Shown here: positions 9,576-57,569 of the stretch, piece by piece | Layout of the letters: each line of letters starts with the position of its first letter | Numbering within the stretch: the first letter of the stretch is position 1 | Assembly (NCBI RefSeq): GCF_022965805.1 | Contig: NC_133105.1 | Coordinates: 31,252,447-31,316,446, forward strand | Direction: 5' to 3' | Source: Primulina eburnea | Lineage: Eukaryota > Streptophyta > Magnoliopsida > Lamiales > Gesneriaceae | DNA length: 64,000 bases | Translations under genes and position numbers: made by a program | The notes under the pieces: generated by a model | The model's database searches: none | What the model was told of the DNA's origin: nothing | Seen by the model: the letters and a program-made list of their open reading frames with translations, nothing else

Positions 9576-9742
9576 CTCGCTCGGGCGATCAAAAGTTGCC
9601 GCCCGGGCGAGTAATTCTCGACCCTCGCCCATTCCAGCAGCCTCGCTCGGGCGGTCAAAAACATCCGCCCGGGCGAGTGACTCCCGGCCCTTTTCTCCGA
9701 GGCACTCTCGCTCGGGCGGTCAAAAATGTCCGCCCGGGCGAG
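9576..9742. repeat. G1 U3 array: three 65-66-bp units with paired GC palindromes
   Basis: CTCGCTCGGGCG starts at 9576, 9642 and 9707. The partner CGCCCGGGCGAG starts at 9600, 9666 and 9731, always 24 bp later. CGCCCGGGCG is itself palindromic, and the two arms together also form an inverted repeat with 12-bp arms and a 12-bp loop. The array sits between the LTR start and the TATA box. Confidence 0.9.
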
Positions 9743-9862
9743 TCACTTTCGCCCAACAGTTTACATATTTAAATTTTAAATCTCAAAATGATCTGATTGC
9801 ATTCATATCTACTCAACATCGATAATCTCAAACTAACGTGTTATAAAATCTTGGGCATTACA

Positions 9863-12247
9863 CTGGGAAGACCAGTCACGAAATCCATAGTAATATGCTC
9901 CCACTTCCAGTGAGGAATCGGCAATGATAGCAATGTCCCAGCAGGTCTCTGATGCTCGATCTTCACCTGCTGACAAGTAAGACACTGAGAAATGAACATG
10001 GCAATATCTTTCTTCATACCTGGCCACCAGTAAAGTCGACGAAGATCATGATACATCTTGGTACTGCCTGGATGAATCGAATAAGGCGTAGTATGAGCCT
10101 CTGTCAGAATGTCTCGTCGAATATCATCGCCAATAGGAACACAGATACGGCCTCTGAAAGTCACCAAACCCTCTCCATTTAGCCCAAACTCTGAGTTACC
10201 TCTCTCCTCTGCTCTAGCTCTCATCTCTGTCAACTGAACATCAACAGTCTGCTCTCTACGGATCCTGTCCGTCAATGTAGCCCGAATAACCAATGCTGAA
10301 AGGCGAGCAATGTTCCTCGGAATTACCAAAGAAATCTCCTCTCTCTGCAAATCCATCAACAATGGCCTATGAATCAAAGAACTCAAGGAAGAACTCGACT
10401 TACGGCTCAAAGCATCAGCCACAACATTCGCCTTCCCTGGGTAATAACTGATAGTCACATCATAATCTTTGACAAGTTCTAACCACCTCCTCTACCGCAT
10501 GTTGAGCTCTCTCTGAGAAAACAGATACTTCAAACTCTTGTGGTCCGTGAAGATCTCACATTTTTCGCCATACAAATAATGTCTCCAGATTTTCAGGGCG
10601 AAAACCACAGCTGCCAGCTCTAAATCATGCGTCGGATAATTCCTCTCGTAATCCTTCAACTGGCGAGAAGCATAAGCAATGACCTTACCTCGCTGCATCA
10701 GCACTGCACCAAGGCCTTTCTTCGACGCATCAGTATAGACAACAAAATCCTCAGAACCACTGGGCAATGAAAGAACATGAGCTTTCGTCAATCTATCCTT
10801 CAACTCCTGAAATCCACTCTGGCAATCAATGGACCACTCGAACTTCACAGTCTTCCTCGTCAATTTGGACAATGGCAGGGCAATCTTGGAAAAATCTGAA
10901 ATGAAACGACGATAATAACCCGCAAAACCAAGGAAACTGCGTACCTCTGAGACTGTGGTAGGAAGAGGCCGCTTCTGAATTGCCTCAATATTCACTGGAT
11001 CAACGGCAATGCCATCTTCGAAACAACATGGCCTAAGAAAGAAATCTGATCCAGCCAAAACTCACACTTCTTCAACTTGGCAAACAACCTCTTCTCCCTC
11101 AACAAACGGAGAACAACTCTGAGATGCTCTGCATGAAGCTCTCTGGTCTTGGAATAGATCAAGATGTCGTCGATGAAAACAATGACGAAGCTATCCAAGA
11201 ACGGCTTGAACACACAGTTCATCAGGTCCATGAAAACTGAAGGGGCATTGGTCAGACCAAAAGACATCACAAGAAACTCATAGTGACCATACCTGGTCCT
11301 GAATGCCGTCTTAAGGATATCGGACTCCCTAACCTTCAACTGATAGTATCCAAACCGAAGATCAATCTTCGAAAATACAGTGGCACCCTAAAGTTGATCA
11401 AATAGATCGTTAATCCGTGGCAACGGATACTTGTTCTTGATAGTCACTTTGTTGAGCTCCCTATAGTCAATACACAGCCGCAAAGACCCATCTTTCTTCT
11501 TGACAAATAGAACCGGAGCTCCCCAAGGCGAAGAACTCGGACGAATAAAACCTTTATCCAAAAGATCCTGCAACTGCGTCTTCAACTCCTTCATCTCGGT
11601 AGGGGCCATTCGGTACGGAGCCTTAGAAATAGGAACCGTACCTGGAGCTAAATCAATAACGAACTCAACATCTCTGTCCGGCGGCAAACCCGAAACATCA
11701 TCCTCAAACACATCGGCAAACTCCCTCACAACATCAATATCATCAATATTCAACTTAACCACACCATCCACATCCACAATAGAAGCAAGAAACCCATCGC
11801 AACCTGTACACAGCAATCTCTCAGCCTCAAGACATGAAATAAAAGGAAGGACCAGCGAAGTACCTGCACTGGCGAGCGAACCTCCCTTATTGCTATCATC
11901 TGCAAAAGTCACCGTCTTAGCAACGCAATCGATCACTGCACGATAAGTCGATAGCCAATCCATGCCAAGAATAACATCAAAAGCAACCATCGGGATCACA
12001 ATCAAATCAGCAAAGACCTCTCTATCATCAATACGAACAGGGCATGCATACACAATAAACGTCGGGCACAACACGTTCCCCGAAGGCAATAAGACATTCA
12101 AATGGAGGGGAAGAATAGAAGGAACTATACCCAAAGATCTCAAAAACAATTCAGACATAAAAGAATGAGTAGCACCAGTATCAATCAAAGTCGTAGCTAC
12201 TCTGCCTGAAATTAAAATAGTGCTAGAGATCACAGAAGAATCATGAT
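9863..12247 (-). pseudogene. pol: G2 pol remnant: protease, RT, RNase H, integrase zinc finger
   Basis: The frame opens with the aspartic protease motif [12 protein letters not shown] near 12180. RT follows: [20 protein letters not shown] near 11540, stop TAG in place of a Gln codon at 11388-11390, then FIDDILIYS near 11165. RNase H has [16 protein letters not shown] near 10730 and [12 protein letters not shown] near 10530, with another TAG at about 10495. The integrase HHCC finger lies at 10110-9960. The protein ends at MDFVTGLP, just after the first catalytic Asp, where G1 begins. A frameshift near 11030 separates RT from RNase H. G2 belongs to the chromovirus-like gypsy group by RT similarity, but the chromodomain that would prove it is absent. 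Confidence 0.87.
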
Positions 12248-12253
12248 TAATAC
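9863..12253 (-). mobile_element. G2: fragment of a different Ty3/gypsy element (protease to integrase)
   Basis: This internal fragment is clearly distinct from G1 in sequence. It is cut on its 3' side by the G1 LTR at 9862/9863 and on its 5' side by the C2 LTR at 12253/12254. Neither its LTRs, its gag nor the rest of its integrase occurs in the window, so both junctions have lost their partner flank. Confidence 0.88.
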
Positions 12254-14054: not shown

Positions 14055-15053
14055 TGCGGAGCCGACTTTGTCAATCACGACATCTCCTCTTTCCACGATC
14101 TCTCTGAGGATGTGGTACTTTCTCAATACGTGTTTGGACTTCTGATGAGACCTTGGCTCCTTCGCCTGAACTATGGCTCCCGTGTTGTCGCACATCACCG
14201 GGATAGGAGCAACTTCATTTGGAATGACGCCCAACTCTTGGACGAAATTCCTAATCCAAACAGCCTCCTTTGCTGCAGCCGATGCAACAATGTATTCTGC
14301 CTCAGTGGTGGAATCCGCAGTACTGTCTTGCTTGGAACTCTTCCAAGAGACAGCACCACCATTGAGCATGAATATGAATCCGGAGGTTGACTTCGAGTCA
14401 TCAACATCGCTTTGGAAGCTAGAGTCGGTATAGCCTTCCAATTTTAGTTCTCCACCCCCAAAGACCAAAAACAACTTATTGGTCCTTCTCAAATACTTGA
14501 GGATGTCTTTCACAGCTTTCCAGTGTGGAAGACCAGGGTTGGATTGATATCTACTCACTATACTTAGTGCAAGTGCTACGTCAGGACGTGTAGATATCAT
14601 CCCATACATGATACTACCAATAGCCGGAGCATACGGAATTCGTGTCATCGCCGCTATCTCTGCATCAGTCTTGGGAGACATAGACTTGGATAGGGACACG
14701 CCATGACACATTGGTAGATGTCCTCTCTTGGACTCATCCATCGAGAACCGCTTCACGATGGTATCAATGTATGTGGACTGGGTGAGACCAAACAATCTTT
14801 TTGATCTATCTCTATAGATCTGTATTCCCAATACAAAAGATGCTTCTTCCAAGTCCTGCATTGAGAACTTACTTGCTAAACATATCTTAGTTGATTGCAA
14901 CATTCCTACATCATTCCCAATGAGTAGAATGTCATCAACATAAAGAACAAGGAATGTCACAGCACTCCCACTGACCTTCTTATATACACAGGGTTCCTCA
15001 GAATTCTTAGTAAAACCAAACTCTTTGATTGTACTATCGAATCTGAGGTTCCA
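14055..15053 (-). pseudogene. pol: C2 pol, downstream half: RT C-part and RNase H
   Basis: This continues the reading frame broken by G5 at 15053/22830. The RT catalytic motif is LYVDDILLIGND near 14940. RNase H carries [19 protein letters not shown] near 14400 and the TEAEYI segment near 14290. The long open frame is unbroken over this stretch. It stops matching copia pol at the motif GSAD and then reads on into the LTR, because the last ~30 residues of RNase H and the start of the LTR have been deleted. Confidence 0.9.
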
Positions 15054-15720
15054 TGTGGGGACCCGGACGCTAATCACGATCTTAATCATCATTGGGACTA
15101 ATAATCAATTATAAAACAGGGTCTAAATTTTTTTTTTAAAATACAAAGCGGAAACGTAATGTAATTTACTCAAATTACATATTAAACATGAATATACATC
15201 TCAGTATAAAAGTACAAGTCATGTACAACATACATTTATTCCCTAGGGTTTAGCAGCTAATATCAAGTGTCTAACCCTATCTCTAAATCAAGTCCGGAAT
15301 CACCCACGCTAAACTCGTCTTCTCTCATCCTCTTCTTGACCCTGATCCAGCCCCACCTGTTGTCATGCACACATACAAAACAAGACAACAGCCGGATAAC
15401 TCCGGTGAGAATGAATCCCAGTATAAATCAACGAACATGCAATCATATAAAAACATATATAAAAGCATATATCAGTTATCATTAACATGTAGCAATTCAA
15501 CAAACATGAATGATATAAAACTGTAAATCAACATGTCATATCAGACTCAACTCCACTGACGCGTCGTCTCAGACTCGACTCAACTGACGCGTCGTCTCAG
15601 ACTCGATTCAACTCTATCCTAGGATCCCGATGTCTGAATAATGATAAATATACCGAATCTCAGTCGCTAGGAATGAATCAATCCCTAAACGGAATCGATA
15701 TAATCCATATATTCAATGTC

Positions 15721-15915
15721 TTGGCGAATCAGCCGCAGAATTGACGAATCAGTCAAGAATTAGGCGAATCAGCCAATAACCAGACGAATCAGGCTGTAAT
15801 TAAGCGAATCAGCTTAAGTTTAGACGAATCAGTCAATAGTTTAGACGAATCAGCCAATAACCCGACGAATCAGCCGGTGACTAGGCGAATCAGCCTATGA
15901 CTCAACGACTCAGTA
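15721..15915. repeat. 20-bp-period hairpin array in G5 3' LTR
   Basis: CGAATCAG starts at 15725, 15745, 15765, 15785, 15805, 15825, 15846, 15866 and 15886, and CGACTCAG at 15906, so the period is 20 bp with one 21. The bases around the constant core vary, yet often stay complementary: TTGAC/GTCAA, TTAAGC/GCTTAA, TAGGC/GCCTA. Two further isolated copies lie at about 15959 and 16044, inside an 85-bp duplication. Confidence 0.92.
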
Positions 15916-16884
15916 ATCAATACATGCATTCAGTATCTAAGCAATTCAGTCAATGACTAGCGAATCAGCAGTCGTTACATGCAGTAGCTATAAATCAATA
16001 GACTGATACATGCATTCAGTATCTAAGCAATTCAGTCAATGACTAGCGAATCAGCAGTCGTTACATGCAGTAGCTATAAATCAATAGACTACAAATATCA
16101 ATCTTATCATACAGTAGCTATAAATCAATAGAACTACAATCATAAGTCTCATCAATTGCAAATATCAATGCAATAAATAAAAGTATGTGATTTAGGGAAA
16201 CTCGAGTCAAACCTCACTCGAGTTGTGCAATCCCAACTCACATTATTTATATACATTTCTTTCTGATACTCTGATTCTGTCGAAGTCTCGAACTCAAATC
16301 TGTCAATACTCAATCTGACAAGAACAATATCGAGGAGTATAATATCAATACACACTCGAATCAAATCTGTTCTGCTCAATACTTAACCTAATTCAATATC
16401 GATGGCATAACGGTATAATATCGATATACCCAACAATACCACATCAATCTGATATTAATTCTAACATCTCATACTCGATATAATACCATTCTGATATCAA
16501 TTTCACTTCAAAATTCATAACAATTCCATAATCAGTCCGTTTCGTAATCTGACTTCGATTCTATGATGTCTAACATGTCAAGAACATCATATAGACGTGT
16601 ATTCAATTTCAACAACATCACAATTCCAAATCATATTAAAACGTAGTAAAACTTACGCCCAGTTGTAGCCTACGTTGATAGGAACTCGGTACTGAAGTCA
16701 GATTCAAAATCAGACGGACGGATTTCACGTAACTCACGATTATTCGTACGGAAATGAAGCTTCTTAAGATCTCTTGTCTCTTACCTTTCTTCATTCTGAT
16801 GGATAAGTGCTTGTGTGTGTATATATAAATATATACATGTTGCCAACTTAAGGCCAAGTGTCAATTTGGCAATCCGCATGCCGC

Positions 16885-17018
16885 GCGCATATGCGCCACT
16901 CTTCTCGCGCATATGCGCTGAACCTACTGTCCCTCCCGCGCATATGCGCCCTCTACGTCACGCATATGCGCCGATCCTTCTGACAGGTCGTGCATATGAG
17001 CGACTTATCTCGTGCATA
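16885..17018. repeat. Paired GCGCATATGCGC array in G5 3' LTR
   Basis: Copies begin at 16885, 16907, 16938 and 16960, with two more decayed copies before 17018. The first spacings are 22, 31 and 22, as in the 5' LTR. Several copies have CG-to-TG/CA changes. Confidence 0.9.
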
Positions 17019-17178
17019 TGCGCCGAGATGTTCGGCCCCGAACATCTTGAGATGTTTCGGTTTTGAACATCTTGGCTTATATTATAACGATGCCCGACCT
17101 CGTCATTTGAGTTCTTATAACCTCAATCATGGTCAATAATCAATGTCTGATTATAATAATTAATTCTCGGGCATTACA

Positions 17179-19329
17179 TTTCTCCCCCTCTTAGACCTGA
17201 GTTCGTCCTCGAACTCACAAGTAATCGATTCAGAAGAAATGTATATATAGAGTTTAAACCAAAACTCAAATATCTGATTCCGGTCTGGAATAAGAATTCA
17301 CTAAGTATAATGTCATAATACTTCTCCAATCCTTCTGACGGAATCAATCTCGCATTACTGGCTATACAATGTCCGTATAAACCATTCTACAGTTCATCAC
17401 ATATCCGTACCATCTGCTGTTATCAAAGACATTTACAGTCTTCAGCTTCAAATACCACTCGTCATCATCTGACGTTGGTTTCTTAAATCGGTCCATTCTG
17501 AACTATCTTCATCTTCCTTCGAATTTTCTTCAAAAGAAATCTGTAGTATTCAACGTATACTGTCTTGTCTATAACTATCTCATTACCCATCTGATAAGAT
17601 GATAGTTATTGTCACACAGTGATAATAAGTCATATCAATTGGTGCTAACATCCAGCACTAAAGCTGTACCCAAGTCTTCCAATGTCTGGATAATACATTC
17701 TAACGGTCTGTCAATCTGTAAAACCATTTAAGAGAGAGTTCATGATATACTCTATCATAAGTACACAATCAATAAAAAAAATCACAATCTATTACATTCT
17801 ATGGTGGCATTCTGATCTTTCTGACCACTTCTCTGACATCAATCGGTGTCATTTGATCATGTTTGTACATTATCTAGTACAATCTGATAGATATAGATTG
17901 AACAATCAGTCAATCTTAATTATATCATATTACAATCTGTAAAATGACGGTAATTTCAATACGAAGGCTATAGAAATGTACTCTCATTTCTATTTAGAAC
18001 TTTACAATTCTGTAATAATTCTCCTGATTTCTATCTTTCTATCTTTTCTGTTAGCAATTTAGACATATCAGTACAATTTCTGCCAATATTTCAATACAAT
18101 TCTGTTATAACTGATCTCATCTGTCTATATCACCACTATCTGTTCGAATATAATACAGTCTCAATCATCAGATTGAACACTGAATCCATGACTGTAAGCT
18201 TCTGACAATATCTGTTCTTTCTGATTCGAACTATTTGATTTACACAAATCAGTTAATAACATAAATTAAAGAGGAAATACCTACCTGTATTCGGCTCTGA
18301 CTATCAATATCAAGCTTTGCTGTACAATTCTGACACATCTGATATCACAGAACAATCAATCTCATACAACATACACAATCACATATCTGTTATTCTGATC
18401 GACACTCTGTTCTGATTATCGATGTTGAGTCCTAAACATTCTAATCAGCTTTTCGAACTGCTAACGTTTCAAAATCAGCTCTGGTTCAGAAGGTACAATA
18501 TAATCTTCATTGTCTACAATCAGTCTCAACCACGTGTTCAGAATAACATCAATATTCAATCGGATTCAAAACATGCTAAATTCATAAACCGCAACTGTCT
18601 GACACTGATGTCAACCTCAGCTGACTAATCACGGTTTAACTCTGCTAGAATCAACAGATACATCATTTTCAGATATAATAATCCCTGAACACAATCTGTC
18701 TCAATCAAGATTCACCATTTTAACCGTTTCTAATATCAATTCAAGGTTAAATCAATCTCTCTGAAATCATATCTGACGTCTTATCTGGGGAAAACATTAA
18801 CAACTTTCATATCATTGGTAAATCAGCCAATGATAGACTCAACTTCAGTAAATCAACTGAATACATAAGGAGTCACTCTGCTCCTTTCTGTAATAATCGA
18901 GTCATAGCTAGTACGAATATCAAAGGAATTCTCAGTCTAGAATCCTTATCGTACAATATTCATCCCCAAGCTATCTCAGGTCCAGTTCTCACCATCTTCT
19001 GGAATTAATCTATGGTAGCTCTGTACTTGGTCAGCATATCAATATCAGTAATGCAGTTCAAAAATCATAGAACACCAGTAAAATATCATCTACCACACAA
19101 TCTAACTCGATCTCATTCTTATCCTACTATAGTATACAAGATCTAACAGAAATCGCTGATACAAGATCTTTCCCAAAGGAAAAGAAACAAATACTACAGT
19201 ACATAGGGACTCAACAGAGAATGCATACATCAATGCAAATCTTTCAGAAATAAGAGTATGTGAAGCACCGGCATTACTCAATACATACGTAGGATAATCA
19301 AACAAATCAGTTACCTGCAACATCATCAT
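17179..19329 (-). pseudogene. pol: G5 dead protease and shrunken pol
   Basis: The protease segment (19329-19102) reads NAGASHTLIS where relatives have [10 protein letters not shown], so the catalytic Asp is lost. Protease C-terminal words (DMLTKYRAT) recur near 19035. From about 18900 down only scattered pieces of the G4-like pol can be followed, for example a PELIL-like stretch near 18480 and remnants of the linker before the integrase zinc finger. I found no RT FIDD motif, no RNase H, no integrase core and no chromodomain. The stretch is about 2 kb against about 3.5 kb in G4, so many deletions have occurred. Confidence 0.75.
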
Positions 19330-20412
19330 CTGGTGCTTCCTGAGCCTGCTCCTCGGTCAAAGCAAATATTCTGGCCTGCTGTCTAGGAGGCTGGCCAACT
19401 GTCTGGCTTCCTCCTGGCCTCTGCTGTGGACTGAGATGGTGCTGGCTGAAATGAAGGAACGGCAGCTGATCGTCTACCCCACTGTGCCGCTGATCCAGAT
19501 GGTTCAGCTCCCTGGGATCTTTGGGAACCCCTCTGTGGACATACTCTGGCAAAATGTCCCTGTTGCTTGCAGAAGTGGCAACTACCAAGTACTCCTTGGC
19601 ATTGCTCAGTGGAATGTCTCCCTCCACAATTTCCGCAGTAAACGCCAGTATAACTCTGCTGAGAACCACTGGAGCTAGAAGAAATGCCGCCCGACTTCTT
19701 CAATTGCTTCCTCTAGCCTTAAGAAAATCTTCCTTCTACCACTGATACTGCCACTCTCGAATCGGAGAGGTGGCTGCGTGGGTCTCGACACTGGAGGAAC
19801 AAATTCCGCTTCCTCTCTGCCTTATCAGGCCCGCTACAGCGCCCTTTGCTCTATTCATGGCATCAGCAAAGTTATTCGGTGTCCTGTGTTCACCAATGTA
19901 AAAATATCGGGATTCAAGCCATTGATGAACTGATCAGCAACGGCTTCGTAATTTTCAGACACATGAGGAGCAACTTCAACAAGGTAGAAACTTGGTCACA
20001 TATTCTTCAATGTTCAGCTGACCTGTCTCAAATTGCCAAATCCGCCCCTTGTCTTTTCTGTACGATATTGGGAAAAACTCTGGTAAAACTCAGTTTTTTA
20101 AATACATCCCAAGTAATAATCGTACCTCGCTGCTCCAAGGCCCTCTTCATTGTAACCCACCAGCTTTGTGCAACATCAAGCAACTGGTGCCCAATCAATT
20201 TAATCCGGCGCTCATCACTGTACTCCAGTGAATCAAACAGCAACTCAATGCTACCTAACCAATTCTCACACTCGACTGATGTCTCAGTACCCTTCAGCGT
20301 GGGTGGTTTTTGAATGACTGAAACCTCTTCAGCAAGGTTTCCATGGGAGTCGGTGTTACATCCATTGGAGATTTGATGTACTACCCTGTTCTGGTATTCG
20401 TCTGGGAGGCAT
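19330..20412 (-). pseudogene. gag: G5 gag remnant with CCHC knuckle
   Basis: The likely start is the ATG at 20412 (MPPRRIPEQGSTS-like, as in G4). The retrotransposon gag domain is readable in pieces: EYSDERRIKLIGHQL near 20220 and ALEQRGTIITWDVFK near 20120. The knuckle CHFCKQQGHFARVC lies near 19570. The end of gag ([15 protein letters not shown]) lies near 19350. Frameshifts fall near 20290, 20030, 19990, 19800 and 19720. Confidence 0.82.
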
Positions 20413-20682
20413 ATCTGAATATCACAAGGATTAGTAACTCAATCCAACAAACCTGTTTCAATTCAGTCTCTCCTCCGATCATCTTACTGCTGATCGAGAA
20501 TCAATTCAGATTCGTTCCCAATAATACATATTACAAATCAAATCAGATAAGTCAAGTAACATGTATTATTATAACGCAGCAAGACATGCTAGCATTCAAA
20601 AGCAGGAAAGAAAACCTCAATCTAGCCCGCTCACTAGCCTCTTCTATCTCAATCTAAAGAATCTACAGTTCTGGTACCTACA

Positions 20683-20694
20683 GCTCTGATACCA
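20683..20694 (-). other. G5 primer-binding site (iMet type)
   Basis: The minus strand reads TGGTATCAGAGC, five bases past the LTR end at 20700. It is perfectly kept even though the coding region is ruined. Confidence 0.9.
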
Positions 20695-21364
20695 CCTGTT
20701 GTGGGGACCCGGACGCTAATCACGATCTTAATCATCATTGGACTAATAATCAATTATAAAACAGGGTCTAAATTTTTTTTTAAAATACAAAGCGGAAACG
20801 TAATGTAATTTACTCAAATTACATATTAAACATGAATATACATCTCAGTATAAAAGTACAAGTCATGTACAACATACATTTATTCCCTAGGGTTTAACAG
20901 CTAATATCAAGTGTCTAACCATATCTCTAAATCAAGTCCGGAATCACCACGCTAAACTCGTCTTCTCTCATCCTCTTCTTGACCCTGATCCAGCCCCACC
21001 TGTTGTCATGCACACATACAAAACAAGACAACAGCCGGATAACTCCGGTGAGAATGAATCCCAGTATAAATCAACGAACATGCAATCATATAAAAACATA
21101 TATAAAAGCATATATCAGTTATCATTAACATGTAGCAATTCAACAAACATGAATGATATAAAACTGTAAATCACCATGTCATATCAGACTCAACTCCACT
21201 GACGCGTCGTCTCAGACTCGACTCAACTGACGCGTCGTCTCAGACTCGATTCAACTCTATCCTAGGGATCCCGATGTCTGAATAATGATAAATATACCGA
21301 ATCTCAGTCGCTACGAATGAATCAATCCCTAAACGGCATCGATATAATCCATATATTCAATGTC

Positions 21365-21560
21365 TTGGCGAATCAGCCGCAGAATTGACGAATCAGTCAA
21401 GAATTAGGCGAATCAGCCAATAACCAGACGAATCAGCTTGTAATTAAGCGAATCAGCTTAAGTTTAGACGAATCAGTCAATAACCAGACGAATCAGCCAA
21501 TAACCCGACGAATCAGCCGGTGACTAGGCGAATCAGCCTATGACTCAACGACTCAGTAAT
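21365..21560. repeat. 20-bp-period hairpin array in G5 5' LTR
   Basis: This is the same array as in the 3' LTR, beginning with CGAATCAG at 21369 and 21389 and continuing at ~20-bp steps to about 21550. One unit has CAGAC-GAATCA-GCTTG where the other LTR has CAGAC-GAATCA-GGCTG, so single arms do change after insertion. It lies downstream of the TATA tract, so it should be transcribed. In the element-sense RNA the loop reads UGAUUC. Confidence 0.9.
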
Positions 21561-22457
21561 CAATACATGCATTCAGTATCTAAGCAATTCAGTCAATGAC
21601 TAGCGAATCAGCAGTCGTTACATGCAGTAGCTATAAATCAAAGACTGATACATGCATTCAGTATCTAAGCAATTCAGTCAATGACTAGCGAATCAGCAGT
21701 CGTTACATGCAGTAGCTATAAATCAATAGACTACAAATATCAATCTTATCATACAGTAGCTACAAATCAATAGACTACAATCATAAGTCTCATCAATTGC
21801 AAATATCAATGCAATAAATAAAAGTATGTGATTTAGGGAAACTCGAGTCAAACCTCACTCGAGTTGTGCAATCCCAACTCAGCATTAATTTATACCTTTC
21901 TTTCTGATACTCTGATTTTGTCGAAGTCTCGAACTCAAATCTGTCAATACTCAATCTGACAAGAACAATATCGAGGAGTATAATATCAATACACCACTCG
22001 AATCAAATCTGTTCTGCTCAATACTTAACCTAATTCAATATCGATGGCATAACGGTATAATATCGATATACCCAACAATACCACATCAATCTGATATTAA
22101 TTCTAACATCTCATACTCGATATAATACCATTCTGATATCAATTCAACTTCAAAATTCATAACAATTCCATAATCAGTCCGTTTCGTAATCTGACTTCGA
22201 TTCTATGATGTCTAACATGTCAAGAACATCATATATGACGTGTATTCAATTTCAACAACATCATAATTCCAAATCATATTAAAACGTAGTAAAACTTACG
22301 CCCAGTTGTAGCCTACGTTGATAGGAACTCGGTACTGAAGTCAGATTCAAAATCAGACGGACGGATTTCACGTAACTCACGATTATTCGTACGGAAATTG
22401 AAGCTTTCTTAAGATTCTCTTGTCTCTTACCTTTCTTCATTCTGATGGATAAGTGCT

Positions 22458-22465
<8 letters not shown>

Positions 22466-22491
<26 letters not shown>
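22466..22491 (-). promoter_or_regulatory. G5 TATA tract / (TA)n microsatellite
   Basis: An uninterrupted TA run of ~13 repeats lies ~50 bp past the palindrome array, where G1, G3 and G4 have their TATA box. The 3' LTR has a shorter, interrupted version (about 16824-16846), so the run has changed length since insertion. Confidence 0.6.
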
Positions 22492-22540
22492 CATGTTGCC
22501 AACTTAAGGCCAAGTGTCAATTTGGCGATCCGCATGCCGC

Positions 22541-22680
22541 GCGCATATGCGCCACTCTTCTCGCGCATATGCGCTGAACCTACTGTCCCTCCCGCGCATA
22601 TGCGCCCTCTACATCGCGCATATGCGCCGATCCTTCTGGACAGGTCGCGCATATGTGCAACTTATCTCGTGCATATGCGC
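22541..22680. repeat. Paired GCGCATATGCGC array in G5 5' LTR
   Basis: Six copies of the 12-bp palindrome (two with one changed base) start at 22541, 22563, 22594, 22616, 22647 and 22669. The spacings alternate exactly 22, 31, 22, 31, 22, which makes three tandem 53-bp units with two palindromes each. Confidence 0.95.
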
Positions 22681-22682
22681 CG

Positions 22683-22702
22683 AGATGTTCGGCCGAACAT
22701 CT
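22683..22702. repeat. 20-bp perfect palindrome near the G5 LTR start
   Basis: AGATGTTCGG followed by its exact reverse complement CCGAACATCT. A second, imperfect copy follows at 22705-22724. In the 3' LTR both copies (about 17029-17072) are spoiled by small insertions. Confidence 0.88.
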
Positions 22703-22829
22703 TGAGATGTTCGGTTGAACATCTTGGCTTATATTATAACGATGCCCGACCTCGTCATTTGAGTTCTTATAACCTCAATCATGTCAATAATCAATGTCTG
22801 ATTATAATAATTAATTCTCGGGCATTACA

Positions 22830-25048
22830 TTCCAACTCCTAGATGCCTGCTTAAGACCATAAATAGATCTTTGAAGTTTGCATACCAGATGCTCACTTCC
22901 GATAGATGTAAACCCTTCAGGTTGAGACATGTAAATCTCTTCCTTAATATCCCCATTAAGGAAGGTTGTCTTAACATCCATCTGCCATATCTCATAGTCA
23001 TACCATGCAGCTATGGCTAGCAAAATCCTAATGGACTTGAACATTGCAACTGGAGAAAAGGTTTCCTCATAGTCAATACCTTGTTTTTGAGTATACCCTT
23101 TTGCTACCAATCGCGCCTTGAAGGTCAACACCTTCCCATCCGCCCCAAGTTTCCTCTTGTAAATCCATTTACACCTTATGGGAACAATTCCCTCAGGTGG
23201 ATCCACGAGATTCCACACTTGGTTTGAACGCATGGAATTCATCTCAGATTCCATTGCTTCAAGCCATTTGGATGAATCGGCATCCGATAACGCTTCCTTG
23301 AAGGTCCTTGGATCACATCCAAGATCAGGCTCATCATGGCCCTCTTCAAGAAGCAGACCATACCTCACAGGTGGTCTCGAGACTCTCTCGGTTCTTCTAG
23401 GAGCTTGTATCTCCTCACTTGGCTCCTCGGGTGTGGGTTCTACAACTGTGGGTGTTTCTCGAACCTCTTCGAGTTCTATCATCTCTCCTTTTCTATCCAA
23501 TAGAAATTCTTTTTCCAAAAAGGTTGCATTCCTAGAAACAAACACTTTTGTTTCTTTGGGATGATAGAAATAATATCCAGCTGAATTCTTTGGATATCCC
23601 ACAAAGTAACATAAAATGGATCGACCGTCCAATTTATCTCCCACTACCTGCTTCACATAAGCAGGGCACCCCCATATTCTAAAATAAGAATATTTAGGTG
23701 GCTTACCCATCCATATCTCATATGGTGTCTTATCAACTGCTTTTGTATGGACATTGTTCAACAACAGCGCCGCTGTCTCAAGCGCATATCCCCAAAAGGA
23801 TGGCGGCAACTCCGTGAACCCCATCATAGACCGAACCATGTCCATCAAAGTTCGGTTACGACGCTCCGAAACACCATTCAACTGCGGTGTAGCGGGCGGA
23901 GTCCACTGCGAGAGAATCCCATTCTCTCTAAGATACTCTTGGTACTCGGCACTCAAGTACTCACCACCTCGATCCGATCGAAGTGTCTTGATGCTTCGTC
24001 CCAATTGTTTCTCTACTTCACTTCTGAATTCTTTGAACCTTTCAAAGACTTCAGACTTGTATTTCATCAAATACACATACCCATACCTCGAAAAGTCATC
24101 GGTAAAGGTGATGAAGTAGGAATGTCCATGCTTAGTGGTGATGCTAAGTGGACCGCACACGTCGGTATGGATCAAATCCAATAACCCTTTGGCTCGCTCC
24201 GCATGGCCCTTAAAGGGAATTTTGGTCATCTTTCCTTTTAGACAAGATTCACAAGTCGTGAGAGCATTAATATCGGACATATCAAACATGCCAACTCCCA
24301 CTAGCTTGTTCATCCTTCTTAGGGAAATATGACCTAATCGAGCATGCCATAATTGTGCCGAATTAAGAGTATCTTGTTTGCGCTTATTTGTTGTTGTTAT
24401 CGTTTGGACATTGTTAAGTGGAATATCTTTTAATTTTAAGGTGTAGAGATTGTTTTCAAGTTCACCCGTACCAACTAAACATTCATTCTTGTAAATATTG
24501 CAAACACCTTTGCCAAATAAACAAGAAAATCCATCAATATCAAGCATACAAATGGAAATAATGTTTTTAACCAAGTCTGGTACATACAAAACATCTCTCA
24601 AAACAAGCTTAAAATCATTGTTCAATATTAAATAAACATCTCCTACGGCTTTGGCAGCAACCCTTGCTCCATTGCCCATCCTCAGGAAGGTCTCACCCTC
24701 TCGGAGCCTCCTACTTCTTCCCATCACCTGCAAATCATTACAGAGATGTGAGCCACAGCCGGTATCTAATACCCAAGAAGTAGAATTAATCGAGATATTT
24801 ACTTCAATATAGAACATACCCTTGCCAGAACCCTTCTGCGCAAGATATTCCCTGCAGTTACGCCTCCAATGTCCAGGCTTCTTGCAGTGATGACAGATGT
24901 CAACTGTCTTCTCAGCCTTGGCTGGCGCGGCTGCCACTACGGGACTCGGAGTCTGCCTCTTCAAGGGCTCGCTCTTCTTGGGGCGCTTGAAAGAACGCTT
25001 CTTTCCTTTCCCAGGTGGACCGGTCTTCGTGCCAGATGAAGAGCCCAC
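22830..25048 (-). pseudogene. pol: C2 pol, upstream half: zinc knuckle, protease, integrase, RT start
   Basis: One open frame of ~740 codons covers the copia order. The CCHC knuckle CHHCKKPGHWRRNC is near 24890 and the protease site LDTGCGSHLC near 24760. The pre-integrase zinc finger (HARLGHIS, CESCLKGK) is at 24350-24240. Integrase catalytic Asp is in LIHTDVCGP near 24165, the second Asp in LRSDRGGEYLS near 23975, and Glu in NGVSERRNRTL near 23860. The RT start WLEAMESEMNSM is near 23265, running to QMDVKTTFLNGD and LKQASRSWN at 22835. All three integrase acidic residues are present. G5 cuts the gene at 22830, so no full-length product is possible. It is the best-preserved copia gene in the window. 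Confidence 0.93.
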
Positions 25049-33473: not shown

Positions 33474-33534
33474 TGTAATGCCCTAGATTATAAATTGAAC
33501 AATGAGATTATGAAGTGTGGCATGAGACAAGGAC

Positions 33535-33870
33535 CGCACCCGCGCCTAGAGAAGGAGTGAACCCGCGGTCATTAAATGTGAATTTGTGAAGGTGAAGCCG
33601 AGGGGACACCACACCCACGGTGCTAGAAGGACCGCACCCGCGGTCGATGTCCAGTAGGGTAGGAAATTCTATTCGAAGCAAGACCGCACCCACGGTCAAA
33701 GAACCACCGCACCCGCGGTGCATGGACAGAAAGTTGGCGATATTTACCGAAGCAACACCGCACCCGCGGTAAGAATGAGACCGCACCCGCGGTCGTTGAA
33801 TTTTGAAAAATGAATGGATTGCCGAAGCATGAGCGCACCCGCGCTAAAGAAGTTACCGCACCCGCAGTCA
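33535..33870. repeat. G3 U3 array: five 75-bp units with paired ACCGCACCCGCGGT
   Basis: The CGCACCC core (or a decayed version) falls at 33535, ~33558, ~33610, 33633, 33685, 33708, 33759, 33782, 33834 and 33857. Spacings alternate 23 and 51-52. Each core is an imperfect palindrome ACCGC-ACCC-GCGGT. Outer copies are more decayed than inner ones. Confidence 0.93.
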
Positions 33871-33917: not shown

Positions 33918-33925
33918 TATATATA
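33918..33925 (+). promoter_or_regulatory. G3 TATA box
   Basis: TATATATA followed by GAGG, ~445 bp into the LTR and ~50 bp after the palindrome array. Confidence 0.65.
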
Positions 33926-35250
33926 GAGGTGGCTCTTTCCCCTTCCATTTCAGAAGTGAAAAACAAGAAGAGCTTCAGAGTTATTTTAAACTTGCATCCT
34001 AGCTTAGATTGTGAGTTTTGAACGATCCGGCCAACCGATTTTCCATCCGAGCGTAGATTTGTAATCCTTGTGCTACTAGCTTCAAGGGAATGTAAGTTTC
34101 ATTAAATTCCAGTATGTTTTGAATTGTTGATGTTGGGGAAACTTTGTTATGATTTTAGATACATGTTCTTATGATTTTAAGTAACGGTTATACGCAACCG
34201 GATCGAAGAATGGATATTGTATGCTATTGCTACTATTTCCAGCATGTTTAGGGTTAAAGAAGGCAGATTTTGAGTACTATCATATGCCTATGATGATGAT
34301 TATGAGTTGAGAATTAAGATGTATTGATATATGTTGAGATTTAGGATTGAACGGTATTGAGAAAGTACGTCGTTACGCCGTCAAATTGTACCGAGATCTA
34401 GTATTGAATTGGATATGTGTTGATTGAGTTAGAGATTGATAAAATGTGTATCAAAATTGCCATTTTAGATTGAAATTGACAGATTTGTCTTCGAGACTTC
34501 GACTACGACAAGAAAGGTATATTTCATGTGATTGTAAGGAAGATACGACTCGAATCAGATTTGATTGGAGTTTCCCAACAAAATCACATACTAGATTTGT
34601 TATTGTTTATATCTTTGATATACTTTGGATTTGTTTATATATTTATATTCAAATCTCTTGATATAATTATGCTTTTTCTATAGATTTATATTCAAGCATT
34701 GAGATAGGAGAGTCATTGACAGATTTGTCAAAACTAGATGTTCGGTGTATCGACGCATAGGAGCAGTCTTCCTCCGATTGTAGACATTCGATACAGACAC
34801 GACCGAAGTCTAGGAGTAAGACGTACAGTTACCCCGATTGGAGGATAAGTAACAGACAGTGACGTCTTATTCACCCCGAGATCCTTAGAGTAGAGTCGAG
34901 TTGAGTCAAGACATGATTTGAGTTGCATTACATGCTTATATAGATTGGTTTCATAGACTATGGAACCCATTATTATTGCTTTTATGCATGATTCATGATT
35001 TTATGTTAGCATGTATACATGTTTTATACTGGGATTTGTTCTCACCGGAGTTTCTGGCTGTTGTTATGTCTGTATGTGTGCATAACAACAGGTGGGGCAG
35101 GATCTGTGTAATGCCCGAGAATTAATCACAGTTAATCAAGGATTATTGACTTATAATTTAACGGGATTATGAAAGGGCCAACGGAGACACGATTTAAGAT
35201 AACGTGCGGCCAATTATTTTGAATTTCAGAATGTGTTGCCGAAGCAACAC

Positions 35251-35456
35251 CGCACCCGCGCTCAGGAAGACACCGCACCCGCGGTGCATGAACAGAAAGT
35301 TGGGGCAAATTCCAGTAGCCTCACCGCACCCGCGGTATGAAACACGACCGCACCCGCGGTGCAGAACCGCACCCGCGGTCGTGGAAATTCAGAAAATGAA
35401 AAGACTGCCGAAGCATCAGCGCACCCGCGGTCCGATTTGTAGCGCACCCGCGGTGA
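35251..35456. repeat. G4 U3 array of paired CGCACCCGCGGT palindromes
   Basis: Cores start at 35251, 35274, 35325, 35349, 35368, 35420 and 35443. In the 3' LTR they lie at 41923, 41946, 41997, 42021, 42044, 42096 and 42119, so a regular 23-24/51-52 pattern was disturbed in the 5' copy by a 4-bp loss. Confidence 0.92.
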
Positions 35457-36366
35457 TACGTGTTTTGCGAAAATTGTGCCACCTCGTCGAATTCATGCAT
35501 GGATATATATATAGTAGGATTCCTTCGAAAATCAGCAAAAAATCGAGAAAAGGGTCCGAGGAATTTGCTGAAAAATCCTTACGCCTTTTGCGAGAAATTC
35601 GTCCGTCTGATTTTGAATCCGACTTCGGTATTGAGTTCCTAACGACGTAGGCTACAACTGGACGTAAGTTTTACTACGTTTTGACATGTTTTAGAATTAT
35701 GATATTGTCAGAATTGAATGGAACTCATATATGTTGTTCTTTACATTTTAGACATCATAGAATCGAAGTCAGATTAAGAAACGGACTGATTATGGAATTG
35801 TTATGAATTTTATGGGTATATTGATTTATACCAGACAGATTTGAATTGTGATTGGATATCAGATTGTATTGGTATTGATTATGAATTGAGGGAATTGTTA
35901 TCTGGTGAGGTGGTATTGACGGGGATACTGAAATTTTACCGTTATGCCGTTGATTTTGAATTAAATCAAGATTGATCAGATTGTTATTGATTTGAAAGGT
36001 ATATTGACATGAGATTATTGATATTGTCATTGCCAGACAGACTGTGAATTCAGGATCTCGACTGAGCCAGAAACCGACAAAAGAAAGGTATAAGTCAATG
36101 TGGTACTGGGAGATCGACTTGAGTCGGTTTAGACTTGAGTTTCCCTAAATCACATACTTTACTTTATTGCATTGATATTTGCATTGATTTGACTGATGTA
36201 CTTGTTCTCTTGGATATAGATAGCAGGTATTAGACGAGTAATCTTGTGACAGAAGTGCCTGATAGTGGCGGAATCGCCACGGGCACATTGCTCGATGTCT
36301 CAAGATGGGATATTAGCGATAGAGCTACAGTCCATGACGGTTAGGTCAGGACGCCGGATGTTTGGT

Positions 36367-41778: not shown

Positions 41779-43689
41779 TGTAATGCCCGAGAATTAATCA
41801 CAGTTAATCAAGGATTATTGACTTATAATTTAACGGGATTATGAAAGGGCCAACGGAGACACGATTTAAGATAACGTGCGGCCAATTATTTTGAATTTCA
41901 GAATGTGTTGCCGAAGCAACACCGCACTCGCGCTCAGGAAGACACCGCACCCGCGGTGCATGAACAGAAAGTTGGGGCAAATTCCAGTAGCCTCACCGCA
42001 CCTGCGGTATGAAACACGACCGCACCCGCGGTGCAGACAAAACTGCACCCGCGGTCGTGGAAATTCAGAAAATGAAAAGACTGCCGAAGCATGAGCGCAC
42101 CCGCGGTCCGATTTGTAGCGCACCCGCGGTGATACGTGTTTTGCGAAAATTGTGCCACCTCATCGAATTCATGCATGGATATATATATAGTAGGATTCCT
42201 TCGAAAATCAGCAAAAAATCGAGAAAAGGGTCCGAGGAATTTGCTGAAAAATCCTTACGACTTTTGCGAGAAATTCGTCCGTCTGATTTTGAATCCGACT
42301 TCGGTATTGAGTTCCTAACGACGTAGGCTACAACTGGACGTAAGTTTTACTACGTTTTGACATGTTTTAGAATTATGATATTGTCAGAATTGAATGGAAC
42401 TCATATATGTTGTTCTTGACATATTAGACATCATAGAATCGAAGTCAGATTAAGAAATGGACTGATTATGGAATTGTTATGAATTTTTAGGGTATATTGA
42501 TTTATACCAGACAGATTTGAATTGTGATTGGATATCAGATTGTATTGGTATTGATTATGGATTTATGGAATTGTTATCTGGTGAGGTGGTATTGGCGGGG
42601 ATACTGAAATTGTACCGTTATACCGTTGATTTTGAATTAAATCAAGATTGATCAGATTGTTATTGATTTGAAAGGTATATTGACATGAGATTATTGATAT
42701 TGTCATTGCCAGACAGACTGTGAATTCAGGATCTCGACTGAGCCAGAAACCGACAAAAGAAAGGTATAAGTCAATGTGGTACTGGGAGATCGACTTGAGT
42801 CGGTTTAGATTTGAGTTTCCCTAAATCACATACTTTACTTTATTGCATTGATATTTGCATTGATTTGACAGATGTACTTGTTCTCTTGGATATATATAGC
42901 AGGTATTAGACGAGTAATCTTGTGACCGAAGTGCCTGATAGTGGTGGAATCGCCACGGGCACATTGCACGATGTCTCAAGATGGGATATTAGCGATAGAG
43001 CTACAGTCCATGATGGTTAGGTCAGGACGCCGGATGTTTGGTTATATCGAGTAATAGGATTGGAATTCTTCTATTACGGAATTCGATATAGGAACACAAT
43101 ATTTGGTTATATCGAGTAATAGGAACAGAGTTCCTTTTATTACGGAATTCGATATGGGAACACCACATCTGGAAACCAGGATCCCTAGACTAGGATTGAG
43201 TCTAGTCTAAATGATAGAGTATGAGCATTGTCGACAGCCTATGATTGTTTATGTTTCAGATTTTGATACATATATCTGTTACCTGATTACATGCTTTATA
43301 TTTGTTGATATGATTGCATGTTTCATTGATTTATACTGGGATTTATTCTCACCGGAGTTATCCGGCTGTTGTCTTGTCTGTATGTGTACACGACAAAAGG
43401 TGGGACAGGATCAGGGTCCAGGAGATGAAGAGAGATCGTGATTACAGTGGAGACTCCGGACTTGGATTATGATGTATAATAGGGTTGGAACACTTGTCAT
43501 TAGTTGTCTAACCTTAGTGTATTTTGAATGCATGCAGTACAGGACTTGTATTGTATTTTATACTGATATGTATATTAGTTTGATTTCACTACGTTCAGCA
43601 TTTAAAAAAAAAAATTTAGACCCTGTTTTATTATTGATTAATTAGTCCCAATGATGATTAAGAATTTGATTAGCGTCCGGGTCCCCACA
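41779..43689 (+). repeat. G4 3' LTR, 1911 bp
   Basis: Matches the 5' LTR throughout with scattered substitutions and small indels, on the order of 1-2% by eye. Array copies lie at 41923-42132 and leader hairpins at 43040-43156. It ends CCCCACA at 43689, followed by the right ATCTG duplication. Confidence 0.94.
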
Positions 43690-50506: not shown

Positions 50507-50742
50507 TTCGGATCGTCTGAAGAGGGTTCGGATCGTCCGATCAGGGTTCGGATCGTCCGAAGACAGGTGGCTGGACACGTGGAAGACATGCAGAGTTCGG
50601 ATCGTCCGATTAGAGTTCGGATCGTCCGAAGACAGGTGTCTGGACACGTGGAAGACATGCAAGGTTCGGATCGTCCGATCAGGGTTCGGATCGTCCGAAG
50701 TGTGCCGGATCGGATCTTCCGAAGTGGATCGGATCTTCCGAT
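50507..50742. repeat. G6 U3 array of paired TTCGGATCGTCCGAA palindromes with G-boxes
   Basis: TTCGGATCGTC (first copy ends TCTGAA) starts at 50507, 50527, 50547, 50596, 50616, 50665 and 50685: pairs 20 bp apart, pairs repeating every 69 bp. Two variants, ATCGGATCTTCCGA, follow at ~50709 and ~50728. CACGTG lies in each 49-bp gap between pairs. The 3' LTR holds the same array at 56404-56639. Confidence 0.95.
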
Positions 50743-50749: not shown

Positions 50750-50757
50750 TATAAATA
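50750..50757 (+). promoter_or_regulatory. G6 TATA box
   Basis: TATAAATA followed by GAGG, immediately after the last palindrome; a canonical plant core promoter. The copy in the 3' LTR is at 56647-56654. Confidence 0.8.
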
Positions 50758-51688: not shown

Positions 51689-51758
51689 ATGCATTAAGAT
51701 TTTGGGATTTAGAACTTTTCTTTTGGGTTTAATCTCTGGTAACTTTTGTAGCTAAGAG

Positions 51759-54700: not shown

Positions 54701-56186
54701 TTGTAAGCATCGGAAGGGAACAGAGAGTATCCGTATAGCTACTATTTTGTCCGAGCCAGTTTTGTATTCTCGGATTAGAGATGCTCAGATGTCTGATTCT
54801 AAGGTTCAGAAATTAGCTCGGTTGGCTGATAGAGATAATACTTCTGGATTCCACTATCAGTCCGAGGGTCTTTTGTGCTTATCTGGTCGTGTTGTTGTAC
54901 CGGAAGATGACACTTTGAGGGAGGAGATTTTGTCCCAGGCTCATCGTAGCAAGTTGAGTGTTCATCCGGGGAGCAACAAGATGTATAAGGATTTGAGGAC
55001 TCGATTTTGGTGGAAGGGTATGAAACGTAATGTTTATCAGTATGTCTCCAAGTGCCTAGTCTGTCAGCAGGTGAAGGCTGAGTATCGACGACCCGGAGGC
55101 TTGTTACAGAATCTTCCTATTCCGGAGTGGAAGTGAGAGCATATCACGATGGACTTCGTGACTCACTTGCCTATGTCTGTGGGGAATAGAGATGCTATCT
55201 GGGTGGTAGTGGATCGACTTACTAAGTCTGCCCATTTTCTTCCGTATAACAGAGATTTCACTTTCGATCGGATGGCACGGTTGTACATTCAGGAGATTGT
55301 ACGGTTTCATGGTGTGCCCGTGAGTATCGTTAGTGACAGAGATCCTCGATTTACATCTAGATTTTGGGGCAGCTTTCAGCAAGCTTTGGGCACTACCTTG
55401 AGTTTGAGTACTGCACATCACCCAGAGACTGACGGTCAGTCAGAGAGGACTATTCGTACTCTTGAGGATATGTTGAGATCTTGTGTGATGGATTTCGGGC
55501 CAGCTTGGCAGGATCATCTGCCGCTGATAGAGTTTGCATACAACAACAGTTTTCATAGGAGTATTGGTATGTCTCCGTTTGAAGCATTGTATGGTCGACG
55601 TTGTCGTACTCCTCTGTTCTGGGAGGAAGTCGGAGAACGACAGGTCGAGGGTCCAGAATTGATTCAGCAGGCCATGGACAAAGTTCTTGTGATCAATCAG
55701 CGGATTAAGACTGCTCAGGATCGACAAGAGAGTTATGCGAACACCAAGCGCAGACCTCTTCATTTTGATACAGGCGAGAAAGTGTTTCTCAAGGTATCAC
55801 CTTTTCGGAGGATTCTGAGATTTGGACTCAAGGGTAAGCTATCTCCGAGATTCATTGGTCCTTTTGAGATCTTAGAATGTGTGGGAGATTTGGCCTACAG
55901 ATTAGCTTTGCCACCGTATCTGTCTAGTGTTCACAATGTGTTTCATGTGTCCTTGTTGAGACGATACGTAACGGATGAGTCTCATGTTTTGCATCCGACA
56001 GAAGTTCAGCTGAATCCGGATTTGTCTTTTGTGGAAAGACCGGTTTCGATCTTAGACCGGAAGGATAAGGTACTGCGGAATAAGACTATTCCTCTTGTCT
56101 TAGTGCAGTGGCAGCGCCGAGGTACTGAAGAAGCTACTTGGGAACTAGAGAGTCGCATGCGGTCAGAGCATCCAGAGTTGTTCTAG
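51759..56186 (+). pseudogene. gag-pol: G6 gag-pol polyprotein with chromodomain, one premature TGA
   Basis: Single frame of 1475 codons from ATG 51759, 86 nt past the LTR. Gag core lies at about residues 60-210. The knuckle [14 protein letters not shown] starts at about residue 281. Protease is DTGAS at 364-368. RT has FLDD with Asp 700 and 701. RNase H is YTDAS with Asp 847. The integrase HHCC finger lies at about 1060-1105, and its catalytic residues are Asp 1132, Asp 1193 and Glu 1229, with the canonical 35-residue gap between the last two. The GPF module (SPRFIGPFEI) is at about 1365 and the chromodomain at about 1425-1475 (EEATWELE). The only lesion is TGA at 55134-55136 in place of a Trp codon (codon 1126), just before the first integrase Asp. 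It leaves gag, protease, RT and RNase H open but cuts off integrase. Confidence 0.96.
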
Positions 56187-56314
56187 TTGTAGTATTTTCA
56201 GTAATGATTGTAATTTCAGTTGTACTTTCAGTTGTAATTCATTCTTAAGATTGAATGTATTGTTGTTCAGAATTGTCATTCTTCAGACTCGATTTCGCGG
56301 ACGAAATCCTTTTT

Positions 56315-56326
56315 AGGGGGGGAGAA
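56315..56326 (+). other. G6 polypurine tract
   Basis: AGGGGGGGAGAA directly before the 3' LTR, preceded by TTTCGCGGACGAAATCC. Confidence 0.9.
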
Positions 56327-57569
56327 TGTAGTATCCCGATGCCTAATTTGAGTTAATTATTGGATTAATTATATTTCGTTGGGATCGGAAGGACCGAACC
56401 GGGTTCGGATCGTCTGAAGAGGGTTCGGATCGTCCGATCAGGGTTCGGATCGTCCGAAGACAGGTGGCTGGACACGTGGAAGACATGCAGAGTTCGGATC
56501 GTCCGATTAGAGTTCGGATCGTCCGAAGACAGGTGTCTGGACACGTGGAAGACATGCAAGGTTCGGATCGTCCGATCAGGGTTCGGATCGTCCGAAGTGT
56601 GCCGGATCGGATCTTCCGAAGTGGATCGGATCTTCCGATCGTTGTCTATAAATAGAGGCGCGAGGTTTCACTTTTTACTCGCCAATTCCGAGTGTTCCAG
56701 AGCGTTTTAGTCGTTTCTGATGGGTTTCTAGTCTTTTCCCGAGGTTTGGGCACTAGCGGGGAGCTACTAGTCTTGTAGCGGAGCTGTGCTCTAGTTGGGA
56801 GCTAGCGGCATCAGTGGGCTGACTACGGACACAGGCTTGATTCTAGGGCTGATTGCTAGGATCTACTGATTTGAGGTACGAAAGTACTATCCGAGATAGG
56901 AGGATTGAGTATGCTTTACTATATGTTGCATGTTTATATGTTGCATTATTATCTGTCATATGATGCATGGTTTATTATGCGGCATTTGCATAATCATGTT
57001 GAGCCTGATTATCTTTGAGATAGCCTGTTGAGAGGGTGCTCAGCCCTCGTTTGTTGTGGATGGTTGGACCCCGTTGGCCGACGGTGGTCAGGTCACCGGT
57101 ATATCCACAGGTTTATTTTGGTATGGGAGCCACCTCCTGGTGCGACGGCGCAGAGTGCTACATACCTTGACGTCATTTACCTGAGCAGTATTTCGTTATA
57201 CCCAGATCCTGGTATCCAGTACATTTTGCATACATGCATGTCATAGTCTTGTATACTCATGCTTTCGGTGCTGAGCGTTTTATGCTCACGTCCTCGGTTT
57301 ATCTCTGTTTTGGACACCCTATTCGATGGGGCAGGTCTCAGGTTGGACGGTCCAGGAGGGAGTGGACAGGGAGCTGGCAGAGGTTGACCTGTAGTTGTTG
57401 GTATTTGTTCTTGGTATTTAGTTCGATCTGGTTGTTTAAGTATTTTTGTACTTACAGATTCGATTGGGTTGTATTACTGTTTTTCCGCTGTTTACCTGAT
57501 TCAGTTTAAATGTTAAATTTTGCATGCTTAAGTTCTGATTAGTAGGTGATTCTGGAACGGGTCACTACA
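56327..57569 (+). repeat. G6 3' LTR, 1243 bp
   Basis: Same length as the 5' LTR, with two substitutions visible by eye. Followed at once by the right GAAGA duplication (57570-57574). Confidence 0.96.

Follow-up and report, generated by a model that had tools for sequence, protein, structure and literature searches.

Paired CpG palindromes at stepwise distances upstream of the TATA box in Tekay-like long terminal repeats of Primulina eburnea: candidate promoter-proximal binding platforms

Boxes in the unique 3' region (U3) of Tnt1 and Tto1, both Ty1/copia retrotransposons, are repeated, partly symmetric and active in transcription, and occur in few copies; to our knowledge no paired ladder has been described for either. 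The symmetry of Tnt1 box I and the stress signals of Tto1 are mentioned in PMC2829016 and PMC3485330. In Sireviruses, palindromic and family-specific motifs form CpG islands upstream of the TATA box, a feature that classic Ty1/copia elements are said to lack (PMC2829016). Grass Del/Tekay long terminal repeats (LTRs) contain a variable, 'plastic' 5' CpG island that was absent from the five eudicots surveyed (PMC4029996), and the VANC targets of Arabidopsis VANDAL elements are tandem, non-coding and co-evolving nine-base motifs bound by an element-encoded protein (PMC5735166). Here we analyzed a 64-kb stretch of the eudicot Primulina eburnea (C5:31252447-31316446 of the 812 Mb assembly used for all genome-wide scans), hereafter the window, which is made up of LTR retrotransposons nested in one another. 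Five of these elements (G1, G3, G4, G5 and G6) carry tandem arrays of paired CpG palindromes, with the sites conserved and the spacers not. On balance, comparison of the sequences favors reading these arrays, which lie in the U3 of Tekay-like LTRs, as platforms for binding at the DNA level close to the promoter.

Palindrome arrays in the window

A preliminary description of the window had placed arrays between LTR start and TATA box in all five elements, and each was recovered in that position. Distances were taken start to start from word scans for each palindrome; the pair distances first reported for G3, G4, G5 and G6 stand, whilst that of G1 is 22 bp and not 24. Arrays and associated features are located as follows.

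9573 to 9747, minus strand: G1 array, three pairs CGCCCGGGCG / CGCCCGAGCG (element orientation), pair distances 22, 22 and 22, inter-pair 43-44
9522 to 9529, minus strand: G1 TATA box, 49 bp past the last core
2923 to 3120, minus strand: part of the second copy of the G1 LTR, including the array end, 98% identity over 200 bp
33533 to 33868, plus strand: G3 array, five pairs ACCGCACCCGCGGT, pair distance 23 in 5/5, inter-pair 51-52
33918 to 33926, plus strand: G3 TATA box, 51 bp past the last, degenerate core
35249 to 35454, plus strand: G4 5' LTR array, seven copies of the G3 word, distances 23, 51, 24, 19, 52 and 23
41921 to 42130, plus strand: G4 3' LTR array, seven copies of the G3 word, distances 23, 51, 24, 23, 52 and 23
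22541 to 22680, minus strand: G5 5' LTR array, three pairs GCGCATATGCGC, pair distance 22 in 3/3, inter-pair 31
22466 to 22491, minus strand: G5 TATA region, (TA)13, 50 bp past the last core
16885 to 17023, minus strand: G5 3' LTR array, distances 22, 31, 22, 30 and 22
22682 to 22726, minus strand: additional G5 palindrome pair of greater length (AGATGTTCGGCCGAACATCT type), bordering the array on its upstream side
50507 to 50742, plus strand: G6 5' LTR array of TTCGGATCGTCCGAA/T, class CGG-N5-CCG, pair distance 20, inter-pair 49
50750 to 50757, plus strand: G6 TATA box, about 10 bp past the last site
56404 to 56639, plus strand: G6 3' LTR array, identical in the array to the 5' copy

Each LTR holds six (G1), ten (G3), seven (G4), six (G5) or nine (G6) copies, giving at least eight per element where both LTRs carry arrays. 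The second G1 word (CGCTCGGGCG) has one dyad mismatch in 3/3 units, the degenerate last copies in G6 stand at distances of 24 and 19, and the asymmetric words all point one way in the word scan. Exact palindromes were compared with 300 dinucleotide shuffles (in brackets: number observed, shuffle mean, shuffles reaching the observed number). Values were 5, 0.86, 0 for G3; 6, 0.78, 0 and 5, 0.70, 0 for the two copies of G5; 10, 1.73, 0 and 10, 1.71, 0 for those of G6; and 4, 0.99, 1 for the 5' copy of G4. G1 (3, 0.98, 12) and the 3' copy of G4 (3, 0.95, 14) are weak by exact palindromes alone, and the case for these two therefore lies in their repeat structure. When 250-bp windows were ranked by palindrome density the arrays took seven of the eight densest places, the eighth being 23176-23425; G1, with three exact palindromes, ranked lower, and neither LTR of G2, a Ty1/copia element used as an internal control, was among the 22 densest windows listed. 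The ratio of observed to expected CpG is 1.22-1.54 in the arrays against 0.77 in the whole window. The long spacers of G6 (50562-50655 and 56459-56552) contain the word ACACGTGG, presumably G-box-like, in two copies per LTR.

Pieces of G3, G4 and G6 match the RVT_1, integrase zinc-binding and SH3_Tf2-1 models, indicating Ty3-type reverse transcriptase (RT) and integrase. The rve model matched these pieces below its cut-off only, and the Chromo model matched G4 only (E 9.3e-5; 22.7 bits, under the curated cut-off of 25.1), with no match to the G6 piece. The 5' LTR is followed in G4, G5 and G6 by the primer-binding site TGGTATCAGAGC, which we take to be of the tRNA-Met type usual in Tekay. Domain order, best relatives and LTR type make it likely that the elements are Tekay-like. 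G2 was assigned to Ty1/copia by RVT_2, and the element at 1-2703 to the same class by DNA similarity. G5 (15054-22831) is probably a non-autonomous derivative, since its internal region measures only approximately 3.5 kb, shows gag-like similarity to that of G4 and includes little pol; its LTR body also holds a second tandem array at 15714-15914 and 21365-21556 with a unit of about 20 bp (GACGAATCAGCCAATAACTA).

Common core, spacing and position relative to the TATA box

The palindromes had initially been regarded as unrelated. The words do differ, and that of G6 (CGG-ATCGT-CCG) belongs to a separate CGG-N5-CCG class (class B), but those of G1 (CGC-CCGG-GCG), G3 and G4 (CGC-ACCC-GCG) and G5 (CGC-ATAT-GCG) share the core CGC-N4-GCG (class A). 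Because G3 and G4 share one word, the five families are better counted as four words. A screen of all 64 half-sites with gaps of 0-8 returned CGC-N4-GCG as the top core of the window, with 35 occurrences and 29 close pairs against 0.88 expected. The same screen was applied to a 200-kb grid sample independent of the window (20 stretches of 10 kb), in which, after ten AT-repeat frames, the leading cores were CGC-N6-GCG (35 against 0.37 expected) and CGC-N4-GCG (54 occurrences and 35 close pairs against 0.67 expected). Array clusters were present in 5/20 stretches (loci outside the window are numbered with the prefix L): L037 and L046 carry CGCYCGRGCG at distances of 22/49-50, L046 also the ACCGC word of G3 at 23/53, L049 and L050 GCGCATATGCGC at 23/50-51/31, and L044 a class-B word at 73/66. 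The class-B array of L044 (CACGGACCCCGTG, distances 73/66/73) is found in both LTRs, at 383-609 and 6522-6748, and belongs to another Ty3-type element with RT 54% and integrase 36% like G6. Further core fillings (CGC-CATG-GCG and CGC-GATG-GCG) in GGCGCGCC-like words were observed at L049:7220-7330, with a TATA 41 bp downstream.

Scanned with spacers of 4-34 bp, the whole assembly contains 19,035 exact pairs of ACCGCACCCGCGGT (9,839 + 9,196) and 21,629 of GCGCATATGCGC, the latter being self-complementary and found at the same places on both strands, whereas reversed-word controls gave 0 pairs genome-wide. Among the matches listed, which are the first places on contig 1 and not a random draw, ACCGCACCCGCGGT pairs stand at a distance of 23 in 57/94 rows, and 40 distinct 9-nt spacers of these pairs show an average likeness of 34%; the 50 forward rows of GCGCATATGCGC contain only the distances 20 (2), 22 (16), 23 (16), 31 (9) and 41-43 (7). 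Pooling of 30 distinct class-A arrays yielded 123 neighboring core distances of up to 60, distributed as 72 at 17-24 (61 of them at 22-23), 7 at 30-31, 6 at 41-44, 1 at 47 and 37 at 49-54, with none at 25-29 or 32-40. This pool is biased to the ACCGC word since L021-L030 and L051-L058 were chosen for holding it; tolerant site calls in 19 distinct ACCGC arrays gave a distance of 23 in 59/125. Equal spacing inside one family is partly inherited via tandem duplication. The spacing of 22-23 bp recurs with three words, both in the window and in the grid sample.

The TATA box lies 48-54 bp past the end of the last core in 17/27 non-redundant class-A arrays, which include three different words. As LTR bodies are partly homologous, equal TATA distances need not be independent in origin. 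The word CATGCA, which we take to be RY-like, is located directly upstream of TATA in G1 (9522-9545, minus strand) and G4 (35495-35512 and 42171-42188) and is also upstream of TATA in L021, L023, L024, L037, L046 and L049; none was found in this position in G3, G5, L022 or L028.

Phasing was tested with a fixed period of 10.5 bp, the tests being picked post hoc. Taken as single values, the seven distances of the ATAT word gave P 0.001, a set of 15 values extended by 19 and 41 (each seen at least twice) P 0.00006, and all values seen P 0.002. In the window alone the spacing of the four words falls within 3 bp (P 0.012 under a uniform null, post hoc). A unit length of whole helical turns was rejected, the units of G1 and G6 being 6.24 and 6.57 turns.

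Site conservation, word exchange and possible function

Column likeness is higher in the palindromes than in the spacers of G1 (1.00 vs 0.69), G3 (0.86 vs 0.37), G5 (0.94 vs 0.47) and G6 (0.95 vs 0.73). CpG-containing DNA in silenced copies is expected to decay faster, and the kept sites are therefore conservative evidence for selection in multiplying copies. Such decay after insertion is seen between the paired LTRs of G4 and G5, where CpG transitions account for 7/11 substitutions in the arrays compared with 5/59 elsewhere in the same LTRs (per CpG, 7/48 compared with 5/130, P 0.018); the near-identical LTRs of G6 have zero array substitutions. Across 144 ACCGC sites, positions 2 and 13 covary (CG 93, GC 15, GG 21, CC 14; P 0.0006, the sites not being independent), as those of a DNA dyad would.

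The words had been described as family-specific, but word and LTR body do not match. G1 and G3 are 85% alike in the RT-RNase H piece and 69.5% over 1 kb of LTR body, and similarity of their arrays is undetectable; G3 and G4 are 74.6% alike over 228 bp of array, the likeness of their LTR bodies being limited to the last 104 bp (85%); and G4 and G5 have LTR bodies 74-77% alike and no array in common. The LTR bodies of L037, L046, L049 and L050 are 69-90% like that of G4 or G5, whereas words other than that of G4 are found in L037, L049, L050 and one of the L046 copies. When the three class-A words were mapped onto a tree of 17 LTR bodies, a minimum of six changes was required where two would suffice; this count is soft, as stars mark only 5/14 inner branches and one of the rows is long. 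Clustering of words on this tree was not significant (shuffled mean 7.1, as low in 43/200). The firm part of the tree places G3 and L027, both with the ACCGC word, inside one starred clade with G1.

In the binding-platform interpretation each palindrome would be a putative site for a dimeric factor, and with neighboring sites approximately two, three, four or five helical turns apart several dimers could line up along the same side of the helix, some 50 bp before TATA. A protein bound there would mainly activate the element, whilst methylated copies would remain unbound and then lose CpGs. Words may move between LTR bodies via recombination during reverse transcription, and we propose that the geometry is kept because such recombination would swap the whole array at once. 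Of the platform first suggested, what stands is spacing kept without spacer sequence, its recurrence with different words and the nearness of the arrays to TATA; its family specificity does not, and a tetrameric factor and an enhancer or silencer role are candidate features. Possible, though doubtful at present, is the fuller scheme that one factor family reads the CGC-N4-GCG dyad, that center and flanks set specificities, and that LTRs trade cassettes which keep the ladder (~22, 31, 42 and 51 bp) by TATA. If this were true, a single recombination would allow an element to switch to another regulator, or to evade a repressor, with no rebuilding of its promoter.

A number of results weigh against a binding platform. 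The central ACCC of the G3 and G4 word is as conserved as the arms and constant in orientation, and such a one-way center is unexplained by a symmetric dimer site. Deviations from the usual position were seen in 10/27 class-A arrays, with TATA at 41, 61 and 98 (one each) and not found in seven; the seven include L025 and L054-L056, where the ACCGC word still stands at 22-23 bp and the LTRs are evidently of another promoter type. G6 departs from the other elements by its word class, its pair distance of 20 and its TATA distance of 10. Four distance clumps taken as units give a phase P of 0.08 and the window alone P 0.04-0.08, post hoc, so that the two-turn phasing claimed initially is suggestive and unproven, notwithstanding P values of 0.002 or less by single values. 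Family members were expected to keep the arrays, and inside the genome both array and spacing are kept; elsewhere, no CpG palindrome array was present in 4/5 stretches downstream of Tekay-type integrases (covering ~0.5 to 3.5 kb past the integrase end), indicating that the array is not a general Tekay feature. These five loci (L001-L005, two from one assembly) lie in bacterial assemblies, are most likely plant contaminants and encode integrases 55-62% like that of G6; L005 has a single CGG-CCG pair with centers 31 bp apart. The assemblies include those of Streptomyces clavifer JCM 5059, a Mycobacterium sp. and Labilibacter sediminis CG51. No relatives were found in viral contigs, a phage search gave no match and a plasmid search two, at 27-29% identity. 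L045:1-10000 (C4:15000001-15010000) consists of a unit of approximately 364 bp repeated in tandem about 27 times. With ~45% identity, this unit matches the core of the integrase (G6 piece, residues 1-111), so that the satellite is apparently derived from a retrotransposon integrase; L038 has two related open frames.

Folding also counts against a purely DNA-level role. The lowest 110-nt folds of the eight arrays range from -40.3 to -61.3 kcal/mol, all at -40 or lower, in contrast to -36.1 and -34.9 for the G2 copia LTRs, and the arrays could act in RNA as a hairpin cluster in the 3' U3, providing a signal for packaging, dimerization or the 3' end or giving rise to small RNA used in host silencing, as has been suggested for the Sireviruses of maize. 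The one-way orientation of the asymmetric words would fit such a role, and the palindromes of maize Sireviruses are hotspots of small RNA (work cited in PMC10760457 and PMC5311732), maize Ty3 elements being generally without an obvious peak of miRNA-like structure (PMC10760457). We nevertheless judge an RNA-level function unlikely, since folds of -40 kcal/mol or lower also occur outside the arrays (28 runs on the plus strand and 19 on the minus strand across the window) and hairpins need no fixed distances to one another or to TATA. In the transcribed RNA of the 144 ACCGC sites, moreover, changes that keep G-U pairing (23) are not favored over those that break it (24), and the view that selection acts mainly on an RNA stem is unsupported.

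Alternatively, by analogy with VANC, the arrays may be targeted by a factor, encoded by the element or by the host, which erases CpG methylation or blocks it, with words changing in an arms race. CpG-rich sites that are kept and then decay by CpG transitions after insertion (7/11 vs 5/59), the exchanged words and the precedent of co-evolving tandem motifs (PMC5735166) are all in keeping with this, but VANC motifs are not palindromes and the CpG decay reveals array methylation in the copies sampled, making an anti-silencing role rather improbable. Functionless repeats produced by slippage or template switching would account for tandem arrays with a family spacing partly inherited by duplication. 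They would not be expected to keep faster-decaying CpG-rich sites between near-random spacers, or to show the same distances with three words; neutral tandem duplication was rejected on the former ground, and we give it very little credence. A DNA-level binding platform remains the favored interpretation.

Comparison with described systems

A literature search by title and abstract opening, with most subscription journals outside its coverage, found no paper on paired palindromes in Tekay LTRs. The terms 'palindrom' and 'CpG' do not occur in the available part of the rice Retrosat2 paper (PMC3485330), nor 'palindrom' and 'tandem' in the main text of PMC4029996. The earlier view that this kind of structure was undescribed is nonetheless not supported, given the palindromic CpG-island motifs upstream of TATA in Sireviruses (PMC2829016) and the variable 5' CpG island of grass Del/Tekay LTRs (PMC4029996). 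VANDAL arrays resemble those described here in being short, tandem, non-coding motifs that change between related families (PMC5735166), although VANDAL is a DNA transposon with a non-palindromic motif and the present arrays are palindromes of retrotransposons. The Del/Tekay 5' CpG island agrees with the P. eburnea arrays in lineage, place in the LTR and variability of sequence and length; in the available text it is reported for grasses only, whereas the CpG-rich arrays described here are in a eudicot host. In keeping with this host, the product of a single-exon F-box gene from the assembly (L040) has 100% identity over 419 aa to a protein of Primulina tabacum.

The Sirevirus RM boxes are similar in their palindromic motif, at least eight copies per element, CpG richness and position upstream of TATA (PMC2829016). 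Their CGG...CCG core is matched by G6 and L044 only, class A being CGC-N4-GCG, and Sireviruses are Ty1/copia elements whilst those studied here carry a Ty3-type RT, so that the arrays may be said to work like Sirevirus boxes and not to be members of that group. A factor common to both was considered and not supported, as a 5-mer was shared by 3/4 words (1.8 expected, P 0.23) and a 6-mer by 1/4 (P 0.48). Paired stepwise spacing is unmentioned for Sirevirus boxes in the part of PMC2829016 available. The common core, the stepwise spacing and the exchange of words between LTR bodies are thus what is added here to a Sirevirus-type design, which is extended beyond Ty1/copia to another retrotransposon superfamily, and to Tekay-like elements of a eudicot, for which such CpG islands had been reported absent. 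With tens of thousands of site pairs in this one genome, rules of spacing and sequence become readable statistically, providing a route to asking how a retrotransposon alters its regulation with its promoter intact. The arrays also offer a concrete account of why the Del 5' CpG island is so variable.

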